Origin: an uncultured Sphingomonadales bacterium
GTDB lineage: Bacteria > Pseudomonadota > Alphaproteobacteria > Sphingomonadales > Rhodothalassiaceae
Assembly: GCA_947499155.1 (NCBI GenBank)
Contig: CANMND010000003.1
Span: 310,001-374,000, forward strand
DNA: 64,000 bases
Direction of reading: 5' to 3'
The notes under the pieces are model-generated. The model did not search any database and was not told where the DNA came from. It saw nothing but the letters and a program-made list of their open reading frames with translations. The position numbers were made by a program, and so were the translations under genes. Positions 3,912 to 38,148 of this stretch are shown one piece after another; the first letter of the stretch is position 1; each line of letters starts with the position of its first letter.

Positions 3912-4811
3912 CTAAAGGTTGAATACCCGCACGGGCCGCAGGACACCGTCTTTACCTTCAACGATTGCTACCGGCAGATCGTCATGAAGCAAAACCAGCC
4001 TGCCGCCTGTGGCGGACTCATGCCGAACACGCTGACCTTTTCTTATCCGGTCCGCTTCCTCTGTCGTTATGGCCAGCACCGGGATGTCGTCCAGCGCGGT
4101 CATAACAGAAAGCACACATGCATCGGCGGGCGCACCATGCCCCAGTTCTTCGATTTTTTCCAGCGAAATTCCCTGCCCTTCCCTGAACGGCCCAACACGG
4201 TTTCGGCGCAGGCATGTCACATGCCCGACCGTCCCCAATGCCCGGGCCAGATCACTGGCAAGCGAACGGATATAGGTCCCCTTGCCACAGGTGACAGCAA
4301 AGCGGCTTTCACAGGCGTTGTCCGTGCCGCCCAGATACGAAAGCGCCTCAATCGTGACGGATCGCGATGGAAGTTCTGGCGCCTTGCCGTCCCTGGCGAG
4401 TGCATAGGCACGTTTTCCATCCACCTTAATGGCGGAATAGGCAGGCGGCACCTGTTCTATCACGCCAAGAAAGCGCGGCAGAATTGCTTTTATCGCTGAT
4501 TCGTCCGGTCTGTGATCGTGAGTATCTGTTACAACACCCTCCACATCGCCGGTGCTGCGCTCTTCACCCCACTTCACGGTAAATTCATAATCTTTGGAGG
4601 CATCGACCAGAAAGGACATGGTTTTGGTCGCCTCCCCAAGGCCTATGGGAAGAATTCCAGTGGCTAATGGATCAAGGGTTCCGGCATGGCCTGCTTTTTT
4701 TGCATCCAAAAGCCAGCGCACCCGGCCAACTGCCTGTGATGAACTCATGCCTAAAGGCTTGTCGAGCACGACCCAGCCATGAACATCACGTCCGCGTTTT
4801 TTTCTGCTCAT
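3912..4811 (-). CDS. truB: tRNA pseudouridine(55) synthase
   Basis: TruB converts U55 of the tRNA T-loop to pseudouridine. The catalytic Asp is D47 in [10 protein letters not shown]. Other family blocks are [14 protein letters not shown] at the N-terminus, [14 protein letters not shown] and [14 protein letters not shown]. At 299 aa it has the length of a bacterial TruB with the C-terminal PUA-like extension. Its start overlaps the rbfA stop by 4 bp (ATGA), showing translational coupling in the infB-rbfA-truB-rpsO operon. Confidence 0.96.
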
Positions 4812-5227
4812 CTATCCTCTTCCGAGGAATCCAGAACATCCTCAGAATTCTCCAGATCGCGGCGCACCTTGTCAGACCGTAAAAGTGCCTCGATCCGGTC
4901 TCCTTCACCAAAGCTTTCATCCAGCTTGAAATGAAGTTGGGGCAGGTATTTCATGTGAACAAGAGGAGCCAGTTGCCCGCGCACATAAGAGGCATGGCGG
5001 GATAGGGCATAAACCACATCTTGAGCAGCATCGCCCAGCATGGGAACGACAAAGACATCGGCATGACGGAGATCCGGGCTGACATTGACGGCCGTTACTG
5101 TGATGGCACGTCCAGTCAATTCCGCATCCCGGATATCATCGCGGGCAAGTATGCCGCTGAGCGCATGGCGGATATTTTCCCCCACGCGCAACAGCCGCAC
5201 TGAGCGCCCGCCTTTTTTTAAAGACAT
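4808..5227 (-). CDS. rbfA: 30S ribosome-binding factor A
   Basis: A 139-aa RbfA, a small KH-fold protein that binds the 30S subunit and helps mature the 5' end of 16S rRNA. Diagnostic segments are RVGENIRHALSGIL, VNVSPDLRHADVFVVP and YLPQLHFKLDESFGEGDRI. It lies nine bases after infB and overlaps truB by 4 bp, the usual order. Confidence 0.96.
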   Translation of the reverse strand: MSLKKGGRSVRLLRVGENIRHALSGILARDDIRDAELTGRAITVTAVNVSPDLRHADVFVVPMLGDAAQDVVYALSRHASYVRGQLAPLVHMKYLPQLHFKLDESFGEGDRIEALLRSDKVRRDLENSEDVLDSSEEDR

Positions 5228-5236
5228 GCAGTCCTC

Positions 5237-7888
5237 TTATAGTTTGCGCTCGACTTCCCGGGTGTCAAAGACTTCGACAATGTCGCCCGGCTTCATATCC
5301 TGATAGTTTTCAAAGCCCATACCGCACTCGGTCCCTGAACGGACTTCGTCCACATCATCCTTGAAGCGTCGCAATGAGATGAGGCGCCCCGTATAAACCA
5401 CCACATCGTCGCGCAACAGGCGGGCATGCGACCCTTTTCGAAGCACACCCTCGGTAACGAGGCCACCTGCCGCCTTGCCGGTCTTGCCTGCTGAGAATAC
5501 ATCGCGGATTTCCGCCATACCCAGCATGTCTTCGACAATTTCCGGACCAAGCTGACCAGCCATCGCCGCCTTCACATCATCCATCAGATGGTAGATGACC
5601 GAATAGTACTTGATCATCACGCCATCACGAGCGGCTGCTTCGCGCGCCTGTTTGTTGGCACGAACATTAAAGCCGATGATGAGAGCGTCCGAGGCTTTCG
5701 CCAAAGTTACATCGGTTTCCGTAATGCCTCCGGCTGCCGCATGCAGGATATTGGCCCTGATATCATCGCCACCGATTTTGGCCAGCGACTGTACAATCGC
5801 TTCAACCGACCCCTGCACGTCGCCCTTGATGACTAAAGGAAATTCCTCGGCCTTGCGTTCCTTGAGGCGCGTGAACATGCCTTCGATGCTTGTAGGTGCA
5901 ACGAATTGACGCCGCTTGTGCTGTTCGCTCTGACGATACTGGGACACATCACGAGCCCGTGCCTCGCCTTCAACAACAGCCATCTCATCTCCAGCCGATG
6001 GCGCACCATTAAGGCCCAGAACCTCCACCGGACGTGATGGTTCCGCCTCCTGAAGCTGCTGGCCCCGCTCATCGATCATGGCGCGGACACGGCCCCATTC
6101 AGCACCAGCCACAAATATATCGCCAACGCGCAAGGTTCCCCGTGAAATCAGCACGGTTGCAACAGGGCCACGGCCTTTTTCCAGTTTGGCTTCAACCACA
6201 ATGCCTTCAGCAGAACGATTGGGGTTGGCTTTCAGGTCAAGCAGTTCTGCCTGCAGGCTGATTGCTTCCACCAGCTTGTCAAGATTCTGGCGCTTCTTGG
6301 CGGAGATTTCCACATCCAGGACTTCACCGCCCATGGCTTCAACCTGAACATTATGCTGCAACAATTCCTGACGGACGCGATCAGGGTCTGCCCCTTCCAC
6401 GTCAATCTTGTTGATCGCGACAATGATAGGCACTTGGGCTGCACGGGCGTGGCTGATCGCCTCCACCGTTTGCGGCATGATGCCATCGTCAGCAGCCACG
6501 ACCAGAATCACAATATCAGTGACGCTCGCACCTCGGGCACGCATTTCTGTAAAGGCTTCATGGCCTGGCGTATCAAGGAAAGTCACCCGGTCACCGGATG
6601 GCAATTTAACCTGATAGGCTCCGATATGCTGGGTAATGCCACCGGCTTCACCTGCAACCACATCAGTTTCGCGCAAGGCGTCAAGAAGCGAGGTCTTGCC
6701 ATGATCCACATGACCCATAATAGTGACAACAGGAGGGCGCGGACGCAGATCTTCTGCCTTGTCCTCTTCGCCGCCAAGGCCAATTTCCACGTCTGATTCC
6801 AGAACGCGTTTTGGAATGTGGCCCAACTCGACGACCACCAGTTCTGCGGTATCCTGGTCAAGATTTTCATTAATGGTGACCATCATGTCCATTTTCATCA
6901 GGACCCGAATAAGGTCAGCCGCCTTTTCCGCCATCCGAATCGCCAGTTCCTGAACCGTAATAATCTCAGGAATGATGACTTCGCGCGCCTGTTTTTCCTG
7001 CTCATGGATGGACTGGCCGCCCCGCCGTTTGGCCTGGGCACGACGATAGGCCGCAAGCGAGCGCCTGCGTTCACGTTCGTCTTCACCATCAAAGGCGCGA
7101 TTGACCGTCAGCTTGCCAGAGCGACGCCCGTCACCGCCACGACTGCGTCTGGGACGCTCGCGCTTTTCGCCATCATCATCGCTGCGTGCTTCCCGACGTT
7201 GCTTGGCCGGTTTTCTGGTCTCAGTCTTCGTAACCGTTTCTTCACGCTGTTTGGCCTCTTCTTCAGACTTCTTGCGCGCTTCGGCTTCGGCTTTCTTGCG
7301 AATTTTGTCTTCAGCGGCACGCTTTGCAGCCTGTTCAGCAAGACGTCTCGCCTGCTCTTCTGCCTTGGTCAGTTCAGCCTCACCCGAAGGAGCGACCACT
7401 GGCGGCTCAACGCCTGCCTTTTCAGCCTCGGCACGACGGGCGGCTTCCGCTGCTTCACGCACAGCTTCTTCCTCAGCCTTGCGACGCCGCTCTTCCTCTG
7501 CTGCGCGCTGGCGTGCCTCTTCCTCCACACGCTGGTGTTCGGCTTCTGCCCGGGCACGCTCTTCATCAAGACTTGCGAGTGCGCGCTTGCGGACTTCCAG
7601 TTCCTGACTGGTCAAGCCACCTGCATCACGCTGCTCGCCCCTTCTCGGTCTGGGCGACGACTGCCTTTGTGGCGCAGCCTTTTTAGCCGGCTGTGAAGGA
7701 GTCGGTGTGCTGCTGGCAGGCTGCTCGGAAGCCGCGCCCTTTTTCAGAACGCGCTTGCGCCGCCGTTCGACAACCACCGGCTTGGACCGGCCCTGGGAGA
7801 AATTCTGCTGAACATTGCCAGAACCACGTCCCTTGCCAACACCAAGCGTGCCACGTCCGGAAAGACTCAATTTATTGTCGTCGCTCAT
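5237..7888 (-). CDS. infB: Translation initiation factor IF-2
   Basis: IF-2 is the GTPase that places initiator tRNA on the 30S subunit. The GTPase motifs are GHVDHGKTS (G1), DTPGHEAF (G3) and NKID (G4), followed by domain II and the C-terminal fMet-tRNA-binding region. The N-terminal third is a long charged low-complexity segment rich in Glu, Ala, Arg and Lys, as in other alphaproteobacterial IF-2 proteins. The open frame can be read 16 codons further upstream, but the ATG at 7888 opens the conserved [17 protein letters not shown]-terminus. From there the length is 883 aa. It lies 44 bp after the ylxR-like gene. Confidence 0.96.
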
Positions 7889-32124: not shown

Positions 32125-34830
32125 TTACTGTGGATCTTTTAGAATATCTTTCAAACGATAAATCAGGTCATGGGCCTGTTTTGGGCTAAGATCGTCCGGC
32201 ACAACCTCTTCAAGCGCCTGTAAAAGCGCTGTGGCAATGGGATTTTCGTCCGTCTTTTCTTCAGTCTTTGCCCCACCCTGAGAGGCAAACAAAGGCAAAT
32301 CGTCAATGATGGCACGGGTCCGTTCGCCGTGACCGCTTTGTTCCAGTTCCGCCAGAACCTTTTGCGCACGGGTGATCACCGGGTCCGGCAGTCCGGCAAG
32401 GCGGGCCACCTGAATACCATAGGACCGGTCCGCAGAGCCGGGCACCACTTCATGCAGGAAAACCACATCATTTTGCCACTCCTTCACCCGCATGGAATGA
32501 AGGGACAGACTGGCAAGGCGTTCCTTCAAGACTGACAATTCATGATAATGGGTGGCAAAAAGCGCCCGCGCCCGGTTCACGTCATGAAGATGTTCAACGG
32601 TCGCCCACGCAATGGAGAGACCATCAAATGTTGCGGTCCCGCGTCCGATTTCGTCCAGAATGACCAAAGACCGGTCTGTGGCCTGATTAAGGATGGCTGC
32701 GGTTTCCACCATTTCCACCATGAAGGTGGAGCGGCCATGGGCAAGATCATCTGATGCGCCAACCCGGCTGAACAGGCGGTCCACAATACCGATTTCAGCA
32801 CTGTCAGCCGGCACATGGCTGCCCGCCTGCGCCAATATGGCAATCAGGGCGTTCTGGCGCAGGAAGGTGGATTTCCCTGCCATATTGGGTCCCGTCACAA
32901 GCCACAATCGGCGTTCCGCACCAAGATCACAGGCATTGGCGATAAATGTGCCTCTGTCTTGCGCCTTCAGGGACGCTTCCACCACCGGATGGCGCCCGCC
33001 CTTGATGGCAAACCGGCAATCATCTGTCATGGTCGGCCGGGTCCAGCGTTCGGTCACTGACAATTCAGCAAGCGCCGCAGAGACATCAAACACCGCAAGT
33101 GCTTGTGCCGTATCACTTAAGGCCTGCCAATGGTCCGCCACCAGCGCGACAAAGCGGGTGAAAATCTCTTGCTCCATGGCCAGCGCCCGCTCACCAGCCT
33201 GGGAGATTTTCATTGCCAGCTCCCCCAGTTCAGCCGTTGTGAAGCGCACGCTGTTGGCTAGGGTCTGGCGGTGGATAAAGCGGTCAGACAAGGGCGGACA
33301 CATTAAGGCGTCCGCATGCCTCGCCGACACATCAATATGATAACCCAGAACATTGTTATGCTTGATCTTGAGGGCTGTTATGCCGGTTTCTTCGCGATAG
33401 TCCCGCTCCAGCCCCGCGATCAGGCGGCGGCTTTCATCACGCAACATGCGGGTTTCATCAAGGGATGCGTCATAGCCACGGGCAACAAAGCCACCGTCAC
33501 GCAACAGGGCAGGTGGCTCAGGCACAAGCGCACACGCCAACTCCTCGATCAATGCCTGATGGCCACCCAGTGCCTGCCACGGTGCCTCTAGCGCCGCTGG
33601 CCGGGGGCTTAAGCCGGTATCGTCATACATCCGCGCCTTAAGGTCGGCTGCGGCATGAAGGGCGTCCCTTATGGCAGACAGGTCACGAGGGGTCCCGCGT
33701 CCGATGGTCAGCCGCGACATGGCCCGCTCCAGATCGGGTACCCGGCGCAGGCACTGCCGGACATCGGCACGCAAGGCACCATGATCAACAAACCACGATA
33801 CCGCATCCAGTCGCGCGTCAATCTCGGCGCAATCGGTGAGAGGTGCCGTCAGTCGAACGCCAAGAGCGCGGGCACCTGCCCCTGTCACCGTACGGTCGAT
33901 TGTCGCGAGAAGACTGCCTTTGGTCTCACCGCCAAGGGTGCGGGTCAGTTCCAGATTACGTCTGGTTGCCGCATCAATCAGCATCACCGCCCCGCGCGCC
34001 CGCTGCCGGGGCGGCATGAAGGGCGGCATGCGGCCTTTTTGCGTCTCTTCCAGATAGCCAAGGACGCCATCACAGGCCGCAAGCTCGGCCCGGCTAAAGG
34101 CACCAAAGCCATCCAGCGTCCCGACACCGAACAGAGCTTTAAGCCGCTCCGCGCCTCCCTGGCTGCTGGCGGCTGCCGGGCCCAGATATGTGAGGACCGG
34201 CAGATGATCCTCCAGCACGGCACGGATAGCGTCATCCGTCTCTACCTGTTCGGTTACCAGAAGTTCACCGGGCGACAATTGGGCAAGGTCTGCGCCAAGA
34301 ACGTCGGGATTGGTCACCATGGTCATCAGTTCACCGGTGGACATGTCCGCCCAGGCCAGCGCCAGCGACCCCGCCGCACTGACAAGGGCCACCAGAAAAT
34401 TATGGCGTCTGGCATCAAGCAGGGTGTCTTCTGTCAGCGTCCCCGGCGTCACAAGGCGGACAACTTCGCGCCGGACCACGGATTTGGAGCCGCGCTTTTT
34501 CGCCTCTGCCGGATCTTCGGTCTGTTCGGCAACCGCCACCCGAAAGCCTGCCTTGATCAAACGCGCCAGATAGGTGTCCGCCGCATGAATCGGAACCCCG
34601 GCCATGGGGATATCGGCGCCATCATACTGGCCCCGTTTGGTCAGCGTGATATCCAGCGCCTCCGCCGCTTTCACCGCGTCGTCAAAAAACAGCTCGTAGA
34701 AATCCCCCATGCGGTAAAACAGCAAGCAATCGGCATGTTCAGCCTTGATCGCCAGATATTGCGCCATCATCGGCGTGACGGCGTCTTTTATTGCGGTATC
34801 TTTTGTGGGAGCGGTAGCCGGTCGGGACAT
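32125..34830 (-). CDS. mutS: DNA mismatch repair protein MutS
   Basis: A 901-aa MutS. The mismatch-probing F-x-E is F44-Y45-E46 in [10 protein letters not shown]. Walker A is [14 protein letters not shown], and the Walker B/switch region is [19 protein letters not shown], followed by FATHYHEL. It recognises mispairs and recruits MutL. It is the last gene of the conserved block before the repeat zone and CRISPR locus, and its start (34830) faces that zone. Confidence 0.97.
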
Positions 34831-35379
34831 TATGCGCGTGTCTCAGATCAGGGTTGGTATCCAATATCAGACGAACCGCCCTTTTAGCACCCCACTCCCA
34901 CCCACACCAGAGCAGGGTCATTCACAGCGTCAAACAACCGCCCAAATCAACTGCGTCACATCCCAAGCCGTCGCCTGTCACACCCCGACTCAATAACCCG
35001 TCATTCCCCAGCCCCACGCAGTCAGTTGCCGACGTCAAACTCTCTCGTCATTTCCCAATCCAACCCTGTCATTTCCCGACGTCAAATTCTCTCGTCATTC
35101 CCCGGCTTGACCGGGGAATCCATCTGCTCGTCTCCTCAGGCAGGGATGCGGACGAATGGATCCCCCGATCAAGTCGTGGGATGACGGGGAAGGAGTCGTG
35201 GGATGACGGGGAAGGAGTCGCAGGGTGACAGGGACGGGGTTGTGGGATGACGGGGAAGGAGTCTCAGGGTGACAGGGGCGGGGTTGTGGGATGACGGGGA
35301 AGGAGTCGTGGGATGGCAGAACGGGGTTGTGGGACGATGGGGGCGGGGTCGTGGGAGGTCACTGAAAACGGCTCAAAGT
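34831..35379. repeat. Noncoding zone with hairpin element and tandem G-rich repeats
   Basis: This gap has no convincing gene. 34900-35090 contains loosely repeated GTCATTCCC/GTCA-type words. 35092-35191 is a hairpin-type element: arm CCCCGGCTTGACCGGGGAAT near its left end and a related arm (GATCAAGTCGTGGGATGACG) near its right end. From about 35173 to 35358 the right-arm word is tandemly repeated with variations (GTGGGATGACGGGGAAGGAG and similar) every 20-30 bp. A second copy of the element lies at 41514-41640. The zone ends about 20 bp before the first CRISPR repeat. Confidence 0.8.
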
Positions 35380-35613
35380 GGTCACGGCACTCCTCAAAAT
35401 CGAAGTGCCGCAACCCCGACCTGACCGGAGATTGTACTGGCCTGCGGTCACGGCACTCTTCAAAATCGAAGTGCCGCAACCTGGAGCTACAAATTGACAA
35501 TCATTGAAGGTGGTCACGGCACTCTTCAAAATCGAAGTGCCGCAACCCAATGCCGATTATTTATTTGACGCCATTCAGGTCACGGCACTCCTCAAAATCG
35601 AAGTGCCGCAACC
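35380..35613 (-). CRISPR. CRISPR array, four 36-nt repeats and three 30-nt spacers, type VI-B-like repeat
   Basis: Repeats are at 35380-35415, 35446-35481, 35512-35547 and 35578-35613; spacers are at 35416-35445, 35482-35511 and 35548-35577. The period is exactly 66 bp. The repeats are identical except for one base (C in the outer two, T in the inner two, at 35393, 35459, 35525 and 35591). The three spacers are unrelated to each other. On the minus strand each repeat starts GGTTGCGG and ends GTGACC, and positions 1-14 pair with 23-36 around an 8-nt loop GATTTTGA (11 Watson-Crick and 3 G-U pairs). On the plus strand those G-U pairs become A-C mismatches, which supports minus-strand transcription. 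The GTTG start and TTTTGAGG centre resemble Cas13b repeats as I recall them. The array begins 49 bp after the stop of the adjacent gene. Confidence 0.93.
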
Positions 35614-35662
35614 AGGACCATTGTTATGCAATTGATTTAACTGCAACAATGACCCCTTGGAC

Positions 35663-37156
35663 TTACAAAAAAGCCGCATTTCCTGTCGCATTTTCTGGTG
35701 AATTTGTCAATTTTTTTCGCCTTTCAGGCCCGGATTTGCCTGACCGGCTCGCCCTGAATGCCTGATCCAGTTCCCGTCGCCAGCCTGCCACCAGTGCCTT
35801 CACCCGCACCCGCCTGTCGATGGTCCAATGGGCAGATTCAAGATATGTCGCACGCGCGCTCTTCGTCCAGCGCCGCACCACATGGGGTGGCTGGTTCTGC
35901 AATTGACCATCCACTGTGGGTATGGCGAAACTGAAATTCTGTTTGCCGAACATAGTTTGCAGATCGCTGTAGAGATCACCAATCAGGGCGTTTGGGTCGC
36001 CATGGAATTTAACAACATGGTCAGCCTTCAATCCTGCAAACACTTCGGTAAGCACGTCTTCCACCGGAATTGCTCCCTGATCGTCCTTAAGGGCAAAAAA
36101 CGGTTCATTGTGGGATATGCCGTTAAAAATCTGCCGTAACCGGCCCTTCATGCCCACAGCCTTGCGCTCTCTTGTCGTTAACGCCTTTTCTGCCACATCC
36201 AACAGGTGGAACGCACGCCGCAGGCGTTCGTTCACCCGCATCATCACATCATAAACCGCTTCGATTTCCCATTCAAAGTGGAGCGCTTTCCGATGGTCGG
36301 GAAACGTCTGTTCCAAGGCCTGCTCAAGCGCCCCCATCGTCGCCTTGCCCATAAAGGAATAGCGTATTTTAAAATTGTGATAATTATAACGCGGCCAGAC
36401 ACCTGTGGGATAAAAGCTGTCGTACTTAGCCATCCAGGATTCTTTACTGCGCTCCTTGCCCTGCCGCTCATTTTTGCCAAGTGCCTTGCGTGATCCATGA
36501 TCACTATAGAGACGCTCTGTTTCCTCGCGCCTCAACCGCCTGCCATGGGAGAGGACACCCCGGACAGCGGCAGGATCGCTTGATGCATCCGACACTGTGT
36601 TGCGCCGCCTATGGCGGGTGATCGCTCCCTGAAAATGCTGGTGCAGTTTTGGTAACAGGAACAGGCCAAGACTGTGGACGACAGCTCTGTCCGCAACCTT
36701 GCGAAGTTTATCCTTCTGCTTTTCCCAATACTTCAGGAAATGCCGCTTGTTCTTCAGCCCGTCAAGATGATCACAAAATTCGGAAAAGCGCAGCGGGATG
36801 GCATGTGTGTGGCGCAAGCGATATTCAAATCGCTTTTTCTGGCTGTCTGGCAAACCATCCCTTAAAAACTGAATGAAATCCTCTTTGAAACAATCCAGAT
36901 GGCCGGACCTGATTACGCCATTTGAAGGAACAAGGGACTGCAACAACTGCTTGTCCATCCCCTTTTTGGGATTTATTTGCTTCAACGCAGCGTCATAGGC
37001 CACCACCGCTTCATAAAGCTTTTTTAGCTGACCATTGCCGTTGCGGAAAACTTCCCAAAAAATCGACGCGCAATATCTGTTCACCAAATGCAGATAGGTC
37101 AGATACTCCGCCCGAAATTGCGGATCGTGCTCAAGATCAGAAAAATCAATGGACAC
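35663..37156 (-). CDS. Candidate compact Cas13-like (HEPN) CRISPR effector
   Basis: The gene encodes a basic 497-aa protein from a GTG start; the codon two before it is a stop, so the start cannot move further up. The C-terminal half has the layout of a HEPN domain: helix FEWEIEAVYDVMMRVNERL (294-312), helix AFHLLDVAEKALTTRERKA (315-333), then RLRQIFNGISHNEPFF (339-354). The last matches the HEPN helix (R)N-x3-H-N of Cas13 C-terminal domains, except that the expected Arg is Phe344; N345 and H349 are kept. A second R-x4-H is R199-H204 (VRGVLSHGRRL), followed by a Lys/Arg-rich linker (207-240). The N-terminal 180 residues look all-helical with no recognised domain. No RuvC, HNH, transposase or membrane segment is seen. 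The CRISPR array follows 49 bp downstream on the same strand, and no cas1, cas2 or other cas gene is near. Cas13 proteins are usually 775-1250 aa; only the compact Cas13an clade, as I remember it, is this small. An Abi-type HEPN protein beside an unrelated array is the main alternative. Confidence 0.7.
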   Translation of the reverse strand: MSIDFSDLEHDPQFRAEYLTYLHLVNRYCASIFWEVFRNGNGQLKKLYEAVVAYDAALKQINPKKGMDKQLLQSLVPSNGVIRSGHLDCFKEDFIQFLRDGLPDSQKKRFEYRLRHTHAIPLRFSEFCDHLDGLKNKRHFLKYWEKQKDKLRKVADRAVVHSLGLFLLPKLHQHFQGAITRHRRRNTVSDASSDPAAVRGVLSHGRRLRREETERLYSDHGSRKALGKNERQGKERSKESWMAKYDSFYPTGVWPRYNYHNFKIRYSFMGKATMGALEQALEQTFPDHRKALHFEWEIEAVYDVMMRVNERLRRAFHLLDVAEKALTTRERKAVGMKGRLRQIFNGISHNEPFFALKDDQGAIPVEDVLTEVFAGLKADHVVKFHGDPNALIGDLYSDLQTMFGKQNFSFAIPTVDGQLQNQPPHVVRRWTKSARATYLESAHWTIDRRVRVKALVAGWRRELDQAFRASRSGKSGPERRKKLTNSPENATGNAAFL

Positions 37157-37196
37157 GATTCACCACCCCCCCCCACAGGCCTACGGAGAGAGGTAA

Positions 37197-37224
37197 AATA
37201 TAGTACTCTTCTCGCAATAGGCAA
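37197..37224 (-). promoter_or_regulatory. Candidate promoter of the effector gene
   Basis: On the minus strand TTGCCT (37224-37219) is followed after 16 bases by TATATT (37202-37197). The expected transcript starts near 37190. It would contain a run of nine G (C run at 37166-37174 on the plus strand) nine bases before the GTG start codon. Confidence 0.5.
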
Positions 37225-37254
37225 GTCAGGTGGCGTCTGCAGTCTGCAGGCTGC

Positions 37255-38148
37255 TCAGCTCTTGGCGATGGCGTCTGTTGAAGTTTCGGGGTCGTTGTCG
37301 GCGCCGGGTGTACCGAAGCGCTGGGAATAGCGTTTGGTGACGCGTTCCACCGGCAGCAGGATGAAGACATCTGTCGTGCCGAACTGATGATCCACCACAG
37401 CCCCGTCGCCAATGAAGCAGCCGAGCCTTAAATACCCCTTGATCAGGGGTGGCAGGGCACGACGGGCCAGACGCACATCAATATCTTCACGGGGCATCAT
37501 GTTCATTTCGACAAAACGGTCCGGCACGGCGCGGACCATGAAATCATCGGGGCACAGATGCTCGTGATACAGATAGGCCAATGGCTGTTTTAAGGTTTCA
37601 GGGTCGATGCCAGGCAGGGACGCACAACCAAACATATAGGCAATGGAATGCTGTGCCAGATAGCCTGCGATTCCCTTCCACAAAAGACTGATGGTTGAAT
37701 TAGTGCGGTAATCGCGGTGAACGCAAGACCGCCCCAGTTCCAGCAACTGGCCGCCCTTGCCCATATGGGCCTTGAAGCCCGAGCCCATCAATGGCTCCAA
37801 ATCATATTCCTGCGCTGAATAAAAACCGCCATGACGTTCAGCCACCGCCTGCCGCAACAATCTGTATGTGCCGACCACCTGCTGGCCATAGGGACGGGAA
37901 TGGTCGATCACCAGCAAATGATCACACAAGGGATCATAGGCATCCATATCGCGCCGTTCACGCCGCGTCTGGGCGCTGGGGGCTGCCGACATTTCCTCGT
38001 AGAAAATGCGGTAACGCAGGCGCTGCGCCTCAATTACTTCGTCTTCACCCCGCGAGCAACGGACCTCAAGCGGGCCGGATCGCGCGTAATAATCTGCATT
38101 TGCCAGCGTCTGTGCCACAACAACTTTATCTTTTCCGGAATAATCCAT
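37255..38148 (-). CDS. olsB: OlsB-like ornithine-acyl-ACP N-acyltransferase
   Basis: A 297-aa acyltransferase of the Acetyltransf_5 (GNAT-like) family. Motifs include EAQRLRYRIFYEEMSA, GTYRLLRQAVAER, LLELGRSCVHRDYRT and FGCASLPGIDPETL. In alphaproteobacteria OlsB makes lyso-ornithine lipid from ornithine and 3-hydroxyacyl-ACP. The O-acyltransferase OlsA is usually nearby; plsC at 19471 is far away and belongs to another unit. It lies upstream of the CRISPR locus on the same strand. Confidence 0.85.
   Translation of the reverse strand: MDYSGKDKVVVAQTLANADYYARSGPLEVRCSRGEDEVIEAQRLRYRIFYEEMSAAPSAQTRRERRDMDAYDPLCDHLLVIDHSRPYGQQVVGTYRLLRQAVAERHGGFYSAQEYDLEPLMGSGFKAHMGKGGQLLELGRSCVHRDYRTNSTISLLWKGIAGYLAQHSIAYMFGCASLPGIDPETLKQPLAYLYHEHLCPDDFMVRAVPDRFVEMNMMPREDIDVRLARRALPPLIKGYLRLGCFIGDGAVVDHQFGTTDVFILLPVERVTKRYSQRFGTPGADNDPETSTDAIAKS

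Follow-up and report, generated by a model that had tools for sequence, protein, structure and literature searches.

The smallest Cas13 effectors appear to have been described under two names. Cas13e, subtype VI-E of the 2025 classification, is by far the smallest Cas13 (PMC12669027), and from size and description it appears to be one group with Cas13an, for which the founding paper gave thirteen sequences (PMC12165695). In the Cas13an studied so far, the CRISPR (clustered regularly interspaced short palindromic repeats) RNA, or crRNA, consists of a spacer (the guide) followed by a repeat, with an optimum of 30 nt for the spacer and 36 nt for the repeat. The HEPN site does both crRNA processing and target cleavage, and in tested Cas13an activity is lost when either HEPN active site carries point mutations. 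Genomes with Cas13an have also been reported to carry type II adaptation genes (PMC12165695). In ancestral type VI arrays, a 2026 study described a hairpin in the guide portion of an extraneous crRNA (PMC13187072). With so few Cas13an systems described, knowledge of their arrays comes from a small number of loci.

The locus described here lies in a 64,000-nt stretch of DNA (the window) from an uncultured Sphingomonadales bacterium of the Rhodothalassiaceae (GCA_947499155.1, contig CANMND010000003.1, positions 310,001-374,000). At 35380-35613 there are four 36-nt repeats with 30-nt spacers, a 66-nt period that matches the Cas13an optimum exactly. With a probability of roughly 0.87, these repeats and spacers form a VI-E (Cas13an) guide array that is read on the minus strand, the same way as cas13, with a hairpin in its leader, adaptation proteins probably supplied from elsewhere, and an effector that probably binds RNA but cuts it poorly or not at all. 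As in Cas13an, where the proteins have 429-577 amino acids, the effector is small, cas13 stands alone without cas1 or cas2 (its neighbours are mutS and an acyltransferase gene), the array adjoins the gene, the repeats and spacers have the same lengths, and type II adaptation genes occur elsewhere in the genome. Unlike the Cas13an relatives compared here, which keep both motifs, the window protein is substituted in both HEPN RxxxxH motifs. The locus may already be among the thirteen founding sequences.

The minus-strand repeat unit, GGTTGCGGCACTTCGATTTTGAGGAGTGCCGTGACC, folds into a 14-pair hairpin in which positions 1-14 pair with 23-36 and G-U pairs stand at 4-33, 5-32 and 13-24, exactly the pairing proposed in a preliminary description of this DNA. 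That description also held that the better structure forms on the strand that encodes the effector, and folding of both strands agrees. The minimum free energy (MFE) on the minus strand is -24.1 kcal/mol for copies 1 and 4 (z -7.6, with 0/200 shuffled sequences as stable) and -19.5 kcal/mol for copies 2 and 3 (z -5.5), versus -14.3 kcal/mol on the plus strand for all four copies (z about -4.5), a net minus-strand preference of 5.2-9.8 kcal/mol. No shuffled sequence was as stable as these folds. Were mismatches random, the chance that all three non-Watson-Crick positions would be wobbles on one named strand is (2/12)^3 = 0.005. The variable base of the repeat affects only pair 14-23 on the minus strand, where C-G becomes a C-A mismatch. 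All repeats in the window are intact, and the two end repeats are identical to each other. A second array with the Cas13an repeat was not found elsewhere in the genome. The Rfam matches, of microRNA and small nucleolar RNA type, were all sub-threshold and implausible. The G-U pairing had been taken to show transcription from the minus strand. That strand is very probably the right one, chiefly on the evidence of the leader; the G-U pairs themselves show which strand has been selected to fold as RNA, not which is transcribed.

The leader gives stronger evidence of strand than the folding of the repeat. A 13-nt motif, TTTTGTAAGTCCA, lies upstream of the first repeat on the gene strand in three divergent loci, at a distance of 44 nt in the window, 45 nt in L008 and 43 nt in L010. 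Coding constraint fails to explain it, because in L008 and L010 the motif sits after the gene in non-coding sequence. Across whole genomes there is a single copy in that of the window (G000) and a single copy in that of L008 (G398), both at the leader site, and none in G385 and G386, which belong to the window's genus and have no cas13. Between the motif and the first repeat is a hairpin. In the window its energy is -16.3 kcal/mol (1/1000 shuffles as stable; -9.7 on the antisense strand; four gene-strand G-U pairs), and values of -16.7 kcal/mol (6/1000), -13.7 kcal/mol (0/1000) and -14.0 kcal/mol (1/1000) were obtained for L008, L010 and L009. In L009 the gene-strand hairpin has seven G-U pairs, and the antisense strand reaches only -0.7 kcal/mol; since the hairpins of both the window and L009 use G-U pairs and are less stable when the antisense strand is folded, they carry the same kind of strand signal as the repeats. 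The hairpin sequence varies between loci while its position and pairing persist. For example, three of the outer six pairs differ between L008 and L010 and are changed on both sides, so it is the pairing that is kept and not the sequence. The flank past the last repeat is unstructured by the shuffle test in the window, L008, L010 and L009. Degenerate repeats are found at the leader-distal end in L008 and L009, and the two arrays of L011 have near-identical leaders, both on the same gene-strand side. The window hairpin resembles the leaders of ancestral type VI arrays (PMC13187072) in lying directly before the first repeat, where the extraneous crRNA has its guide, and in having no predicted pairing with the repeat; compared with that study, the motif ahead of the hairpin was identified in the present analysis. 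Together, motif and hairpin provide a sequence-only way to assign the array strand in subtype VI-E, better than repeat folding.

A contig search with an alignment of two relatives was successful; an earlier scan with the window protein alone had given none. Four of the five relatives compared are alphaproteobacterial, with arrays: L008 (the same sequence as L006) from a Sphingomonadales metagenome-assembled genome (MAG), L009 from Candidatus Tokpelaia, L010 from a Robiginitomaculum MAG, and L011 (the same as L003) from an uncultured alphaproteobacterium. In L011 the arrays, at 4630-4863 and 6717-7346, lie one on each side of cas13 and have near-identical repeats. A more distant homologue (L004, 835-2919, in a 1.3-Mb genome) has 11 repeats upstream of the gene and both HEPN motifs intact; at 694 amino acids it is bigger than the described Cas13an. 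No relative of the effector was detected in viral contigs, scanned with the single protein and with the alignment, or by tblastn in phages and plasmids. Repeat energies on the gene strand versus the antisense strand were -19.2/-14.4 kcal/mol in L008 (difference -4.8), -18.5/-16.1 in L010 (-2.4) and -22.0/-10.0 in L011 (-12.0). Among the five relatives the gene strand is clearly favoured in two and modestly in one, with two uninformative; counting the window, the difference has the expected direction in 5/6 loci and is uninformative in 2/6 (L009 and L004). As a general strand test in the Cas13an family, G-U asymmetry alone is weak and only suggestive.

The gene beside the array, referred to in the preliminary description as an unnamed effector, is indeed one, a Cas13 of subtype VI-E with non-canonical HEPN motifs. 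The protein matches NF049956 VI_Cas13e with an E value of 3e-108 and 362.9 bits (cut-off 175), and its frame is open over 497 codons without internal stops. Sequence searches of Pfam, PADLOC and the PDB with this protein found no relative. Its predicted structure is mostly helical (predicted local distance difference test, pLDDT, 75; predicted template modelling score, pTM, 0.77), and Foldseek of the model against the PDB gave nothing significant; the authors of Cas13an likewise failed to connect it with known Cas13s by Foldseek (PMC12165695). Both HEPN domains have RxxxxH in all five relatives, and the window protein has RxxxxY and FxxxxH, with R138 and H349 retained as one Arg and one His of the composite active site. 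A single sequencing error is insufficient for Phe344, because a change from Arg to Phe (TTT) takes at least two base changes. At 12 of the 33 columns that are invariant in the four alphaproteobacterial relatives the protein is altered, and seven of these 12 are in or beside the HEPN motifs. With both motifs substituted, the window Cas13an is probably nuclease-impaired, likely to bind RNA and to cleave it poorly or not at all. The locus is best filed as a member of the VI-E lineage that departs from it in the catalytic motifs, rather than as a demonstrated RNA-guided ribonuclease.

In the proposed mechanism, a transcript would enter from the cas13 side by way of the leader, through the motif (35670-35658) and then the hairpin (35656-35614). 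Each repeat of the precursor would fold as its 14-pair hairpin and be bound by Cas13an, the guide lying on the 5' side of that repeat. From the first repeat would come a crRNA of no use, its guide being leader sequence, and the hairpin, which would occupy that guide's place, may block this crRNA. Spacers would probably be captured in trans by Cas1-Cas2, plausibly by the proteins of a type II-C system in the same genome. That system (L027, G000:C3:97000-114000) has Cas9, Cas1, a cas2-like frame and an array of 16 repeats, each 36 nt long, separated by 30-nt spacers. The II-C array is like that of the window in its 36/30 spacing and in the start of the repeat (GTTGCGG in the sense shown; GGTTGCGG for Cas13an), and unlike it in the remaining, unrelated repeat sequence and in its effector. 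A second cas1 is found at L028 (G000:C5:111000-127000) beside I-E-type arrays; the II-C and I-E labels come from gene content and repeat form, not from a subtype search.

Several results weigh against this account. In L009 the repeat energies are nearly equal (-17.7/-17.1 kcal/mol, difference -0.6) and the sole G-U pair is on the antisense strand, and in L004 the antisense strand is slightly favoured (-20.8/-21.5, difference +0.7). The L011 leaders lack TTTTGTAAGTCCA, and their last 43 nt are not significantly structured in the shuffle test. A scan for array promoters and terminators was uninformative, the minus-strand promoter candidates being only weak and near chance. The three spacers gave no convincing match in phages, viral contigs, plasmids, the organism's own genome or the relatives (phage matches had E values of 0.2 or more), and crRNA processing by the window protein appears doubtful after the loss of HEPN residues. 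A small point is that the plus strand tolerates the variable base as a U-G wobble, something the preliminary description missed. This wobble, and the fact that the plus-strand repeat still folds, would suit transcription of the array from the plus strand, starting on the mutS side, with the minus-strand G-U pairs accidental. Such an origin is very improbable: motif, hairpin and decay of distal repeats all put the leader on the cas13 side, the mutS-side flank is neither structured nor conserved, and the minus strand is favoured by 5-10 kcal/mol. CRISPR repeats often contain inverted repeats, and the stem might be a feature of the DNA, a cruciform or an integration signal, instead of an RNA structure. 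This is harder still to credit, since a palindrome has no reason to place G-U pairs on one strand, and all three imperfections are minus-strand wobbles (chance about 0.005).

Other alternatives concern what the effector does with a minus-strand guide array. The system may be decaying, its array perhaps still transcribed from the minus strand, its effector without nuclease or crRNA processing, and the whole unused. The substitution of both HEPN motifs, the mere four repeats, the long branch of the protein (1.04 vs 0.60 for L010), the lack of protospacers and the need for HEPN in Cas13an processing (PMC12165695) all fit decay, which deserves serious, if less than even, credence. Against it stand the open 497-amino-acid frame with a score twice the family cut-off, the intact repeats and leader hairpin, the identical end repeats, and a loss that is concentrated rather than diffuse, with 7/12 of the changed invariant columns in the two motifs. 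It is doubtful, though conceivable, that a naturally nuclease-dead Cas13an has been retained as an RNA-guided binder that blocks or regulates target RNAs uncut, with crRNAs matured by host enzymes; a literature search for a natural nuclease-dead Cas13 found nothing under the terms used, which is weak evidence of absence. The remaining R138 and H349 would allow the protein to have kept RNase activity through an unusual active site, an unlikely state given the two substitutions. As a Cas13an altered in both active-site motifs, the protein would either bind RNA naturally under the direction of a guide or capture a moment in the loss of a potentially toxic nuclease.

Table 1. Positions in the window of the array, its leader and the effector gene, in minus-strand order
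Feature	Position	Strand	Basis or remark
cas13, subtype VI-E (Cas13an / Cas13e), 497 aa, GTG start	35663..37156	-	NCBIfam NF049956 VI_Cas13e
HEPN1 motif, residues 138-143, RHFLKY; Tyr143 for expected His	36728..36745	-	five relatives RxxxxH
HEPN2 motif, residues 344-349, FNGISH; Phe344 (codon TTT) for expected Arg	36110..36127	-	five relatives RNxxAH
Leader motif TTTTGTAAGTCCA, 13 nt, overlapping cas13 stop codon	35658..35670	-	also in L008 and L010
Leader hairpin abutting first repeat (putative pseudo-guide of extraneous crRNA)	35614..35656	-	folding, shuffles
Repeat 1 (first in transcription order)	35578..35613	-	repeat listing and folding
Spacer 1, 30 nt	35548..35577	-	repeat listing; no protospacer match
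Repeat 2, variant base 35525	35512..35547	-	repeat listing and folding
Spacer 2, 30 nt	35482..35511	-	repeat listing; no convincing protospacer
Repeat 3, variant base 35459	35446..35481	-	repeat listing and folding
Spacer 3, 30 nt	35416..35445	-	repeat listing; no protospacer match
Repeat 4 (last, leader-distal)	35380..35415	-	repeat listing and folding

The genomic site differs among related bacteria. In the window, cas13 and the array (region 34830-37255) sit between mutS and the acyltransferase gene. That place is taken by a malic enzyme gene (the name is our own reading of its sequence) in G385 and G386, of the window's genus, and in G387, of the same family, and in G388 there is nothing between the two genes. 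Because cas13 and the array are where related genomes have the malic enzyme gene, horizontal arrival is suggested. A relative of the malic enzyme with 45% identity lies elsewhere in the window's genome. Between the array and mutS, at 35173-35348, there is also a G-rich, imperfect 22-bp tandem repeat with a consensus near GTCGTGGGATGACGGGGAAGGA.
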